A stretch of DNA of 64,000 nucleotides from assembly GCF_000374845.1 (NCBI RefSeq), contig NZ_KB895417.1, forward strand, positions 1,661 to 65,660. The letters run 5' to 3'. Position 1 is the stretch's first letter; each line of letters opens with the position of its first letter. Both the position numbers and the translations under genes were made by a program. Below, piece by piece: positions 32,362 through 41,301 of the stretch. The notes beneath the pieces were generated by a model. The model saw nothing but the letters and a program-made list of their open reading frames with translations. It was not told the DNA's origin and did no database searches. The DNA is from Paenibacillus terrigena DSM 21567. GTDB lineage: Bacteria; Bacillota; Bacilli; Paenibacillales; Paenibacillaceae.

Positions 32362-32433
32362 AATGTGACTTCTTGAAATATACGATAATTTAATATTTGA
32401 CTATCTAAGATAAATTGTTGTAAAATGGAAATA

Positions 32434-32552
32434 CGCTTAATTTCCGGATATGAGATCGGAAAGCGGGGGAACCAATTTTTTGGGGCGAATCAAGGATGTA
32501 TTGTAGGGAACCATCTTTCCCGAGCCCGACAGCTAACCTCGTCAGCAGTGGA
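32434..32552 (+). ncRNA. c-di-AMP riboswitch (ydaO-yuaA class)
   Basis: The class signatures are present in order: CCGGATATGAGATCGG, AGCGGGGGAACCAATTTTTTGG followed by GGGCGAATC, a GGGAACC...CCCGA arm, and the highly conserved 3' part GCCCGACAGCTAACCTCGTCAGC. c-di-AMP binding normally turns such riboswitches off by favouring a terminator, and two terminator hairpins follow (32586 and 32625) before a KamA-family gene. Boundaries are approximate. Confidence 0.9.
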
Positions 32553-32585
32553 TGGGTCAATCATAGACACTTTTGCCGCACCCCT

Positions 32586-37280: not shown

Positions 37281-38498
37281 GTGAATCGAATCATTCAATT
37301 ATTGACCAATAGTTATAACACACTTCGTTCGCAGCATCCCATCGTCAATTCATTGCTTGTCGGAACGGTCTTAGCACGAGCGGCTTCATCCATGAGTATG
37401 CCGTTCCTGGCGATTTATTTATCGAAAACAACGTCCATGAGTGCTGTTATGATTGGACTCGTCATCGGTGCCGGATCCTTAGCCGGCATGTTCGGCGGTT
37501 TTATTGGCGGTGCATTATCCGATCGATTCGGGAGACGGGTCATTATGATGGCTGCTTTATTTGGCTGGGTCTTCGCGTTCGTCGGGTTCTCCATCTTCAA
37601 GACACCGCTCATTATTATGTTGTTAAATATGGTGAACGGATTATGCCGATCGTTCTATGAACCGGTCTCTCAGGCGTTGATGGCTGATTTGACACCGAAG
37701 GAACGACGGTTCCAGATGTTCTCGCTTCGCTATTTAGCTATTAATATCGGTGTTGCGGTGGGGCCTCTGCTGGGAGCATATTTCGGCATGCGCAGCGGAA
37801 CAACACCTTTTCTGATTACAGGATTTATTTATTTCATCTATGCGGTGGTATTATACGGATTGCTCATGACTTTTGGTATTAAGCAGATTGAAGGAGACAA
37901 GAAACCGAAGGTCACAATTACGGCAACATGGCATGTTATTAGGAAAGACGTTACGCTGAGATACTACTTGATTGGTGGAATAATCGGCGCAATCGGATAT
38001 TCACAGATGACCGTTACGTTGTCACAGTACGTGAATAATAGCGTTGCGAATGGGGTGACGCTGTTCGCGCTACTCATGAGCGTGAATGCGATTGTTGTTG
38101 TCGCCTTCCAGCTTCCGCTGGCGAAGTGGGCGGAGAAACGCTCTCCACTTGTTGCTATCACGGCGGGCAATATTCTCTTCGCGCTTGGCGATATCGGGTT
38201 CGCCTTCTCATGGAATGCCGTAACGTTCTTGCTGTCTATGGCCGTATTTACGCTTGGCGAAGTATTGAATTTCCCATCTTCAAATCTACTCGTGGACGAA
38301 TTGGCACCGGATGAGATGCGAGGAGCTTATTATGGGGCACAATCGTTTAATAGTCTTGGATTTTTCCTTGGACCATGGGTGGGCGGGATGCTGCTCATGT
38401 ATTTCGGCGGTGCAACCTTGTTTACGGTCATGGCGGTGATTACGGTTATGAGCACATCCTTCTATCGCTTCGGCATGCGAAGGTTTGAGAGAAGCTGA
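37281..38498 (+). CDS. MFS transporter
   Basis: 405 residues, 12 membrane segments. The loop between segments 2 and 3 has GGALSDRFGRRVIMM, the MFS signature. It resembles multidrug efflux proteins of the DHA1 type. GTG 37281 follows AAGGAGG by 6 bases. An inverted repeat TGTGG/CCACA (37222-37244) lies in the promoter area. Substrate unknown. Confidence 0.87.
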   Translation: MNRIIQLLTNSYNTLRSQHPIVNSLLVGTVLARAASSMSMPFLAIYLSKTTSMSAVMIGLVIGAGSLAGMFGGFIGGALSDRFGRRVIMMAALFGWVFAFVGFSIFKTPLIIMLLNMVNGLCRSFYEPVSQALMADLTPKERRFQMFSLRYLAINIGVAVGPLLGAYFGMRSGTTPFLITGFIYFIYAVVLYGLLMTFGIKQIEGDKKPKVTITATWHVIRKDVTLRYYLIGGIIGAIGYSQMTVTLSQYVNNSVANGVTLFALLMSVNAIVVVAFQLPLAKWAEKRSPLVAITAGNILFALGDIGFAFSWNAVTFLLSMAVFTLGEVLNFPSSNLLVDELAPDEMRGAYYGAQSFNSLGFFLGPWVGGMLLMYFGGATLFTVMAVITVMSTSFYRFGMRRFERS

Positions 38499-38671: not shown

Positions 38672-38700
38672 TTGTGTCTGTGAGAGGTGTATGCTACAAT
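38672..38700 (+). promoter_or_regulatory. promoter of the hflX leader
   Basis: TTGTGT, 17 bp, TACAAT. The -35 is weak. It lies 33 bases before the leader peptide start. Confidence 0.5.
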
Positions 38701-38733
38701 CGAAATTAACGAATAATGAACGGAGGGTTTCCT

Positions 38734-38784
38734 GTGAACAATATTTACGCAGTCAGATTACGTTTCAATGCTTTGTGCCGCTAA
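38734..38784 (+). CDS. hflX leader peptide with RLR arrest motif
   Basis: A 16-residue open frame, MNNIYAVRLRFNALCR, starts with GTG 6 bases after a strong AACGGAGGG site and ends in TAA. It contains VRLRF; the macrolide/ketolide-responsive ErmD leader peptide contains MRLRF, and the +x+ motif RLR is a known drug-dependent arrest motif. A hairpin CTCTGC/GCAGAG (38803-38820) and two terminators follow before hflX. Ribosome stalling here could change leader folding and let transcription reach hflX. No protein product role is proposed. Confidence 0.68.
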   Translation: MNNIYAVRLRFNALCR

Positions 38785-38896
38785 CTGAATAGTGCTCAAA
38801 GACTCTGCGTGTGTGCAGAGCGAACGGGATTGGTCTGCCTTGTAACAGGGAATCAATTGTAACAACAATGGACAAATCAATAATCCTTACCCGAGG

Positions 38897-38935
38897 AGCA
38901 AATGTGCTGGTTGTGAACCAGGGATGTGCTTTTTT
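38897..38935 (+). terminator. hflX leader terminator 1
   Basis: AGCAAATGTGCTGGTT pairs imperfectly with AACCAGGGATGTGCT (loop GTG), followed by TTTTTT. Confidence 0.75.
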
Positions 38936-38991
38936 GCGCATGTCCTGAGATTCCGATCGGTTTCTTTGCTGAACTCCACCCGTTAGCGATG

Positions 38992-39023
38992 AACACAGGC
39001 GATGAGTCTGTGTTTTTTATTTT
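38992..39023 (+). terminator. hflX leader terminator 2
   Basis: ACACAG and CTGTGT (loop of 9) followed by TTTTTTATTTT, 25 bases before the hflX start. Confidence 0.72.
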
Positions 39024-39048
39024 GTGTGAATAATGGAGGAATAAATAT

Positions 39049-40314
39049 ATGGAACAACTCATTCAAAGAGCAATTTTGGTCGGAGTCAATTTGAATCACC
39101 AGACAGATTTTGAATATTCCATGGAAGAGCTCGGGAACTTGGCCGAGGCATGTGATGTCGAGGTTGTAGGTTTAGTCACGCAGAATTTGCAGAGGGTTAC
39201 GTCTTCCCATTACATTGGTACAGGTAAAATCCAAGAAGTTATCGCGCACATGGAAGCACATGAGGCCAATATGGTGATTTTCAATGATGAACTATCGCCA
39301 TCGCAAATTCGGAATCTGGAAGCGGACCTGCAGTGCAAGGTCATTGACCGTACGATTCTCATTCTGGATATTTTCGCCCAGCGGGCCAAAACGAAGGAAG
39401 CGCAGCTTCAGGTTGAAGTTGCACAATTGCAATATATGCTGCCGCGATTAGTTGGTCTGCGTGAATCGCTAGGTCGGCAGGGCGGCGGCGGTGTCGGTAC
39501 GAAGAATAAAGGGGCCGGGGAGACGAAGCTCGAGCTGGATCGTCGTCGGATTGAAGAGAAGATTAATGTCCTTAATAAAGAACTAGAGTCATTAGTCGCT
39601 CACCGTCAGACGCAGCGCAAGCAGCGGAAGAAGAACGATGTGCCGGTCGTCTCGCTCGTAGGGTATACGAATGCGGGGAAATCGACGATTATGAATGCGC
39701 TCGTGGAACGGTTTAATCCAACCGCCGCGAAGCAGGTCTTCGAGAAGGATATGCTGTTCGCAACCTTGGAAACGTCCATTCGGAACATTCCGCTGCCGGA
39801 TAATAAGTCGTTCCTGCTTACGGATACTGTCGGGTTCGTCAGCAAGCTGCCGCATCATCTCGTCAAGGCGTTCCGATCGACTTTGGAGGAAGTGGCCGAG
39901 GCAGATCTCCTCATTCATGTCGTGGATAACTCGAACCCGAATCATGAGCAGCATATCGAGATTACGAACAATACGCTCAAAGACATCGGCGTGCAAGACA
40001 TTACAACCATTTATGCGTATAACAAATCCGATCTGATTGACTTCCCGATTCCAAGCGTTCAAGAAGATCGTATATACCTTGCTGCCAAGCCGCGGATTGG
40101 GATTGATGAGCTGGTGCAGGTGATCCGTCAGCATATTTTCAAAGACTACATCAAGTGCGAAATGGTCATTCCTTATGATAAAGGAAATCTGGTGTCCTAC
40201 TTCAATGAGCATGCGAATATTCTGGAGACCAGCTATGAGAACGAGGGGACGAAGTTAGTCCTAGAATGTCGTACGGTGGATTACGAGCGTTATCAAGACC
40301 TCATTATTCGATAG
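39049..40314 (+). CDS. hflX: HflX ribosome-associated GTPase
   Basis: 421 residues. N-terminal HflX domain, the Gly-rich linker RQGGGGVGTKNKGAGETKLE, and a G domain with G1 GYTNAGKST, G3 DTVGFVSKLP and G4 NKSD. HflX splits stalled 70S ribosomes after stress, and HflXr homologs protect Listeria from macrolides and lincosamides. The 270-base leader with a peptide and two terminators (38734-39023) suggests antibiotic-inducible expression. Start ATG follows GGAGGA. The oxidoreductase gene downstream may be co-transcribed (18-base gap). Confidence 0.95.
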   Translation: MEQLIQRAILVGVNLNHQTDFEYSMEELGNLAEACDVEVVGLVTQNLQRVTSSHYIGTGKIQEVIAHMEAHEANMVIFNDELSPSQIRNLEADLQCKVIDRTILILDIFAQRAKTKEAQLQVEVAQLQYMLPRLVGLRESLGRQGGGGVGTKNKGAGETKLELDRRRIEEKINVLNKELESLVAHRQTQRKQRKKNDVPVVSLVGYTNAGKSTIMNALVERFNPTAAKQVFEKDMLFATLETSIRNIPLPDNKSFLLTDTVGFVSKLPHHLVKAFRSTLEEVAEADLLIHVVDNSNPNHEQHIEITNNTLKDIGVQDITTIYAYNKSDLIDFPIPSVQEDRIYLAAKPRIGIDELVQVIRQHIFKDYIKCEMVIPYDKGNLVSYFNEHANILETSYENEGTKLVLECRTVDYERYQDLIIR

Positions 40315-40332: not shown

Positions 40333-41301
40333 ATGAGAGCATTGGTATTTGAGCAATTTGGCGGACCAGAGGTCTTGCATTATGCAGAGATTGCGGATCC
40401 GGTGTTGTCGCCGGGAACGGTGATCGTGCGGACGTGTGCTGTTGGTCTGAATTTCGCAGACGTCTATCGCAGGCGCGGGAACTATCATCTGGCAGGGCAG
40501 CCGCCCTATATACTCGGCTACGAGGGAGCCGGAATCGTGGAACGTGTGGCTGACGATGTGCAGGGCATTCGGCCCGGTGACCGAATCGCTTTCGCTGATG
40601 TACCTTATGCCAATGCGGAGCTGGTTCAAGTTCCTGTGGATCGAGCGATTCCGCTGCCTTCCGATATTACCTTCGATCAAGCAGCATCCGTGCTGCTGCA
40701 AGGGATGACAGCGCATTATCTGGTGAATGACAGCTATGCGGTACAGCCGGGCGATGACATGCTGGTCCATGCGGCTGCAGGCGGTGTGGGGCAGCTCCTC
40801 ATCCAATTGGGTGTCAGCAAAGGGGCGCGCGTCTTGGGACTGACCTCCTCGGCTGCCAAACGTGAGATCGCGCTGCAAGCAGGAGCGGATGAAGTCCTGC
40901 TGTATGACACCGACTGGGTGGAGGAGGCGATCCGTTGGTCGCAAGGGGGGAACGGCGTTCGAGTGGCTTACGACTCCGTCGGTTCGACCTTAATGGACAG
41001 CTTCGCGGCGGTACAGATTAAAGGGCATGTCGTCTTCTACGGTATGGCTGGTGGCGATCCGGTACCTGTCGATCCTCGGATGCTCATGGATACGTCGAAG
41101 TCGTTGACTGGCGGAGATTTGTGGAATCATGTGACGTCGCGGGAAGACCGGATTCGACGGGCAAATGCCTTGTTCGAAGAAATCAGCAAAGGTCGGCTGC
41201 ATCTCGAAGAGCCGAAGCGATTCGCCTTATCCAAGGGTGCGGAAGCGCATCGACTACTCGAAAGTCGCATGAGCACGGGAAAAATATTACTTATACCGTA
41301 A
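40333..41301 (+). CDS. zinc-independent quinone oxidoreductase (MDR family)
   Basis: 322 residues. N-terminal GroES-like domain and a Rossmann NADPH site (HAAAGGVGQLLIQL). Like QOR it lacks the zinc-binding Cys/His set of alcohol dehydrogenases. It would reduce quinones or related enones with NADPH. It follows hflX after 18 bases and ends before a terminator. Confidence 0.88.
   Translation: MRALVFEQFGGPEVLHYAEIADPVLSPGTVIVRTCAVGLNFADVYRRRGNYHLAGQPPYILGYEGAGIVERVADDVQGIRPGDRIAFADVPYANAELVQVPVDRAIPLPSDITFDQAASVLLQGMTAHYLVNDSYAVQPGDDMLVHAAAGGVGQLLIQLGVSKGARVLGLTSSAAKREIALQAGADEVLLYDTDWVEEAIRWSQGGNGVRVAYDSVGSTLMDSFAAVQIKGHVVFYGMAGGDPVPVDPRMLMDTSKSLTGGDLWNHVTSREDRIRRANALFEEISKGRLHLEEPKRFALSKGAEAHRLLESRMSTGKILLIP

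Follow-up and report, generated by a model that had tools for sequence, protein, structure and literature searches.

A predicted ribosome-dependent attenuator before an HflXr-type gene of Paenibacillus terrigena and related leader RNAs before other resistance genes

Drug-bound ribosomes stall on peptides with a +x+ motif when its middle residue occupies the P site; for ErmDL, this macrolide-dependent arrest occurs at the Leu of RLR (PMC8298421). Several leaders that encode such peptides have been described. The Listeria monocytogenes hflXr leader (rli80) is an RLR attenuator induced by lincomycin and erythromycin (Duval 2018, PMC6310831), and induction there is lost upon mutation of the uORF start codon. 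A second candidate, uORFC-6-1, is a Bacillales uORF with 51 representatives, located mainly before hflX (Brewer 2021, PMC8632094). The Bacillus erm(D)/erm(K) attenuators comprise the leader peptide MTHSMRLRFPTLNQ and two tandem terminators (PMC4335068). In pneumococcus, mef(E)L (MTASMRLR) acts by transcription attenuation; the Mef(E)L and Erm(K)L peptides were found to be similar, with no other leader homology discernible (Chancey 2015, PMC4335068). Lastly, the Bacillus subtilis tlrB (yxjB, RlmAII) leader encodes an RYR +x+ peptide and combines transcription and translation attenuation in the control of an RlmA-type methyltransferase (PMC6851288).

The hflX leader described here lies in a 64,000-nucleotide stretch of P. 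terrigena DSM 21567 (the window). Like rli80-hflXr, it combines an HflXr-type gene, a short RLR uORF and alternative terminator and antiterminator folds, although its uORF has 16 codons instead of 14, and the likeness is drawn from the published description. With uORFC-6-1 it shares a uORF before hflX, a conserved Arg-Leu-Arg (38755–38763) and, beyond the uORF start, covarying RNA; going by the published text description, it is almost certainly the same element. The window element is thus of a known kind (PMC6310831, PMC8632094), and the idea of an attenuator is not new. The new part lies in how widely the family extends and in the mechanism drawn for it: beyond the text description of uORFC-6-1, matches occur before seven gene classes and in 88 of 349 Bacilli genomes, the RLR codons are predicted to pair, and a predicted antiterminator opposes T2.

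The comparison extends to the other leaders. The erm-type leaders with MTHSxRLRFPTLNQ match a model built from hflX leaders, and the window shares their RLRF and the two tandem terminators, while its target gene, hflX, differs from that of erm(D)/erm(K). As in mef(E)/mel, an RLR peptide is found before Mef-like genes, which here carry MTASxRLR leaders together with the same RNA core. In contrast to the view of Chancey 2015 on the mef(E) and erm(K) leaders, RNA homology is seen among the erm and Mef-like leaders examined here. In tlrB the RYR stands at the very end of a 9-residue peptide and is accompanied by a NusG pause, whereas four RlmA-like genes here carry the RLRF-type element. Within the literature searched, which left subscription papers outside (including the original erm(K) structure, Kwak 1991), we found no report of a single RNA spanning gene classes, and none of pairing by the silent positions of the RLR codons.

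Organisation of the leader and its gene

The features of the locus, in window coordinates, are as follows.

38672–38700 (+): candidate promoter, TTGTGT-17-TACAAT with an extended -10 (TGC); from sequence, held with moderate confidence
38722–38727 (+): uORF Shine-Dalgarno GGAGGG, within the conserved GAACGGAGGGUU; from sequence and conservation
38726–38735 (+): closing helix P0, 5′ strand GGUUUCCUGU (Shine-Dalgarno/start region); predicted by the MFE fold
38734–38784 (+): leader uORF with GTG start, peptide MNNIYAVRLRFNALCR; read from sequence, conserved in relatives
38755–38763 (+): RLR (+x+) arrest codons AGA UUA CGU, also the 5′ strand of helix PA (about 38755–38764)
38771–38801 (+): hairpin P1, CUUUGUGCCGCUA (last uORF codons and stop) with UAGUGCUCAAAG; from folding and covariation
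38803–38820 (+): hairpin P2, CUCUGC GUGUGU GCAGAG; in the ON fold, its loop and 3′ strand are paired to T2
38823–38837 (+): PA 3′ strand of the OFF fold, AACGGGAUUGGUCUG; its AACGGG begins the antiterminator in the ON fold
38845–38854 (+): closing helix P0, 3′ strand ACAGGGAAUC; predicted by the MFE fold
about 38893–38934 (+): T1, weak terminator-like hairpin GAGGAGC...GUGCUUUUU; from folding
38979–38999 (+): antiterminator 3′ strand CCCGUUAGCGAUGAACACAGG, overlapping the T2 5′ arm
38991–39015 (+): T2, intrinsic terminator GAACACAGGCGAUGAGUCUGUGUUU followed by a U-run; from a consensus terminator scan and folding
39049–40314 (+): hflX, the gene under control of the leader, coding for a ribosome-splitting GTPase of HflXr type; TIGR03156, by homology
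40333–41301 (+): NADPH:quinone reductase-like gene, 18 nt 3′ of hflX

Read directly, the uORF has its GTG at 38734–38736, 16 sense codons and a TAA at 38782–38784. Among 2000 mononucleotide-shuffled versions of the leader, 0.55% contained a short ORF with a +x+ motif of any kind behind a Shine-Dalgarno sequence, and 0/2000 contained one with RLRF. The candidate promoter, which was missed by a 9-of-12 promoter scan, recurs with identical hexamers and spacing at loci L032 and L034. A preliminary description of this DNA had placed here a 16-codon frame with a good ribosome site, followed by a hairpin and two terminators before hflX. The frame, its GGAGGG, the hairpin (P2) and the second terminator all stand, T2 being clean, the only intrinsic terminator returned by the consensus scan and located 33 nt before the hflX start. 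T1 fares less well: its stem contains internal loops, reaches about -14 kcal/mol and is followed by U6, and from folding it is judged a genuine hairpin but a diverged, weaker terminator. Its position is occupied in other species by AAAGAGGG...CCCUCUUU.

HflX is single-copy in this genome. Matches to HflX within Paenibacillaceae fall into two groups, with E below about 1e-145 and about 1e-80 to 1e-93, and the window protein belongs to the former. Its identity to the chain of PDB 8a57, which we take to be Listeria HflXr, is 55.5%, compared with 39.9% for the second HflX (a paralogue) of a congener. Because of this grouping and these identities, we place it in the HflXr clade and not with canonical HflX, in line with the earlier likening to the Listeria protein. 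In Listeria the HflXr type is linked to antibiotic protection (PMC6310831), and hflX here is likely an inducible macrolide/lincosamide protection gene. Judging by the 18-nt gap, the quinone reductase-like gene is probably co-transcribed and co-regulated with it.

Directly upstream of the leader lies an MFS transporter gene (YdeE-like, 37281–38498) with a strong inverted repeat at its end, GGGCTGCCGCAAGTC...GACTTGCGGCAGCCC. Elsewhere the window contains a c-di-AMP riboswitch (ydaO type) at 32424–32562 (84.6 bits) and, at positions 1–894, the end of a 23S rRNA gene, a 5S rRNA and six tRNA genes. Paenibacillus radicibacter has two HflXr-type genes on one contig (L032 and L033), about 14 kb apart; each is about 90% identical to the window hflX and has its own near-identical RLR leader.

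Conservation and alternative folds

A covariance model, R1, built from 38 hflX leaders only, located the element upstream of 65 of 80 HflXr-type loci in public genomes, on the coding strand in every case; more than half of these 65 had trained the model and the rest are independent. No element was found by R1 at the other 15 of the 80, nor at the one canonical hflX paralogue locus examined. The element-less HflXr loci L070, L073–L076, L079, L082 and L084–L086 are mostly from Peribacillus, where regulation may differ. Most of the 80 loci have an upstream uORF of 12–20 residues with K/R-x-R, in variants such as RLRFxALCR, KFRFxTLRG, RIRLxALCR and RLRFQTLNR. The nucleotides that follow the uORF, CUAAYUGAAUAGUGCUCAAAGRCUCUGC...GCAGRGCRAACGGGAUUGGUCUGCC, are more conserved than the peptide itself. 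The (K/R)xR peptide and surrounding RNA are kept in Paenibacillus, Peribacillus, Heyndrickxia, Brevibacillus, Shimazuella and one Sporotomaculum, while at L035, L080, L107 and L108 the RNA is conserved and a strict +x+ peptide is absent. The conservation of the peptide across related leaders, proposed earlier as a check, is thus borne out in several genera, and at the level of sequence comparison it confirms the leader as real.

In the MFE fold of the window leader, P0 closes a domain that contains PA, which in turn encloses P1 and P2. PA, the pairing of the OFF fold, joins the RLR codons to AACGGGAUUGGUCU. The third base of the Leu codon is Watson-Crick matched to its downstream base in 36 of 57 sequences, compared with 20 expected (0/10,000 permutations; the shuffle leaves sequence relatedness in, and the sequences span many genera and seven gene classes). 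In a 98-leader alignment made without PA in its model, double changes in PA numbered 61 cells, compared with 25 in shuffles and 12–21 with the partner slid. Covariation is strongest at two synonymous positions, the third base of the Leu codon and that of the second Arg codon. For P1 and P2 the corresponding count is 135 compared with 30, in an alignment that itself leans toward their structure.

The pairing proposed for the ON fold joins AACGGG and P2 to CCCGUU...ACACAGG, taking in the 5′ arm of T2. The preliminary description had not been able to pick out an antiterminator by eye; one exists, and its strands covary, with AACGGG/CCCGUU in the window, AAAUGGG/CCAUUU at L103, GCGAAC/GUUCGC at L049 and GUGAAC/GUUUAC at L053. 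Since an unguided MAFFT alignment of the two strands did not bring CCGUU into register, the pairing was assessed by swapping T2 strands between species, with strands taken only from outside the P2 loop and outside the T2 stem. Own strands gave a mean of -13.4 kcal/mol, compared with -10.9 ± 0.35 after swapping (0/5000), and the window pairing is the best among 54 leader positions. Computationally, the leader therefore holds mutually exclusive terminator and antiterminator pairings, with an anti-antiterminator inside the uORF. A candidate antiterminator for T1, GUCUGCCUAUUUUU with AAAAAGAGGG, was noticed by eye in other species.

We then placed a ribosome on 30 leaders in a simple equilibrium partition-function calculation of T2 probability. 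The median was 0.96 for free RNA, 0.28/0.17 with the ribosome on RLR and 0.89 with it at the stop codon; the window gave 0.98, 0.66/0.17 and 0.97, respectively. With stalling at A-site Arg, only 15 of the 30 leaders drop by more than 0.2; the probability also falls, to a median of 0.65, when the ribosome sits at the start codon. At L080 and L106, T2 is misassigned or missing. When the window leader was folded at equilibrium through the end of T1, a stalled ribosome did not clearly relieve T1, and the switch model therefore rests on T2.

A wider family of leader RNAs

Matches to the hflX-built R1 occur once in this genome; the 88 matching Bacilli genomes, many of which carry two or three copies, represent 41 of 135 genera. 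In a phylum-wide sample, 17 of 398 genomes matched, nine of them outside class Bacilli. At the loci examined, the first downstream gene encodes an Mph macrolide phosphotransferase in 20 cases, HflX in 18 (the window counted once), Erm in 17, an Msr-type ABC-F protein in 12, a Mef-like protein in seven, and an RlmA-like protein and LmrB in four each; the remainder are one Tet-like MFS gene and a few weak matches. These names are homology-based, from NCBIfam on cluster representatives together with cluster cohesion, and those of the other regulated genes belong to MLS-resistance families. The peptides of the family include MTHSxRLRFPTLNQ and MTASxRLR, which have been published as the leader peptides of Erm(K)/Erm(D) and Mef(E)/Msr, respectively (PMC4335068).

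A profile of the 62 post-stop columns alone finds nearly all members, mostly with E from 1e-5 to 1e-16 and a handful weaker, and so it is the RNA, and not only the peptide, that is common to the family. Built from hflX leaders, this post-stop profile matches 17/17 erm leaders (E from 6e-5 to 1e-15); the earlier comparison with the ErmD peptide was right, and it extends to homologous RNA beyond the stop codon. T1-like GAGGG...CCCUC and T2-like CACAGGC...GCCUGUG hairpins recur, with some terminator present in 54 of 64 relatives of other gene classes.

At L154, L155, L158 and L169, from relatives of a single genus in the same taxonomic family that lack an HflXr-type gene, the leader precedes an Msr-type ABC-F gene. 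At L130, L145 and L161 the leader matches and the first gene nearby is unassigned, the locus being truncated or the gene farther off; an RlmA-like frame lies about 1 kb downstream at L145 and an ABC-F-like frame about 1.3 kb downstream at L161. Weak R1 matches at L201, L206, L207 and L209 precede genes of the SDR oxidoreductase family and an alpha/beta hydrolase, which, if the matches are real, are weak candidates for unrecognised resistance genes; having no convincing uORF, these four were excluded from the family count.

The proposed switch and its alternatives

The hflX leader is very probably a ribosome-dependent transcription attenuator, in which a drug-stalled ribosome would bring about readthrough. 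Comparison across species supports the uORF and its +x+ motif, P1, P2, PA, the antiterminator pairing, T2 and the HflXr-type protein; drug stalling, readthrough and protection would be the expected behaviour in this organism. The earlier proposal of attenuation of hflX thereby gains good support in silico, from conservation and from the covarying OFF and ON pairings. In the absence of drug, ribosomes would translate the 16 codons fast and leave, the RLR codons would pair with AACGGGAUUGGUCU as PA, enclosing P1 and P2, and T1 and T2 would form before hflX. With a macrolide, ketolide or similar exit-tunnel drug, a ribosome would stall once Leu9 occupies the P site and Arg10 the A site; covering the RLR codons, it would keep PA from forming. 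The freed AACGGG, with P2, could then pair with CCCGUU...ACACAGG and remove the 5′ arm of T2, so that RNA polymerase would continue into hflX and probably the next gene too. HflX would then split stalled ribosomes. The RLR codons may therefore serve twice, as arrest sequence and as anti-antiterminator, which would explain why their silent positions covary with downstream RNA.

The three Arg codons and one Cys codon of the uORF, set within an attenuator architecture, would also suit amino-acid/tRNA attenuation, with pausing at these codons, and not a drug, controlling hflX. We consider this very unlikely, since the family's downstream genes are for macrolide/lincosamide resistance rather than biosynthesis, in many species Lys stands in for Arg (KFRF) without a change in the +x+ spacing, and the terminal LCR codons are kept as RNA, in P1, being read in another frame as CAAN at L053 and L100. 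We give just as little credence to translational attenuation or mRNA stabilisation, rather than termination, as the main mode. P0 does join the ribosome site of the uORF to sequence farther downstream, translational control operates in many erm systems, and stalled ribosomes are known to stabilise erm and mef mRNAs (PMC4335068); however, the hflX ribosome site, at about 39036, lies outside the conserved leader structures, the antiterminator targets the T2 arm with covariation, and terminators recur in the relatives of other gene classes. Least probable is a ligand riboswitch or protein-binding leader with an incidental small ORF, for although the unpaired stretches AAUAGUG and CGGGAUUGGU are more conserved than is usual in a simple attenuator, they are explained as strands of PA and the antiterminator, the GGAGG site and +x+ peptide are kept in nearly every member, and Rfam, searched with the leader at the gathering threshold and at E up to 10, gave nothing credible.

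Returning to drug-dependent attenuation, we think it likely that one homologous attenuator RNA, its arrest codons doubling as anti-antiterminator, has been shuffled before at least seven unrelated resistance families (hflX, mph, erm, msr-type ABC-F, mef, rlmA and lmrB) in Bacillota. The need for the same nine bases to arrest the ribosome and also to pair with RNA 60 bases downstream would account for the recurrence of RLR in a constant codon context. The leaders of erm, mef, msr, mph, rlmA, lmrB and hflX, which have been studied separately, look like copies of one RNA module. If so, its covariance model, which can be searched with, could serve in the annotation of drug-inducible resistance, and the leader itself could be used to discover resistance genes so far unrecognised.
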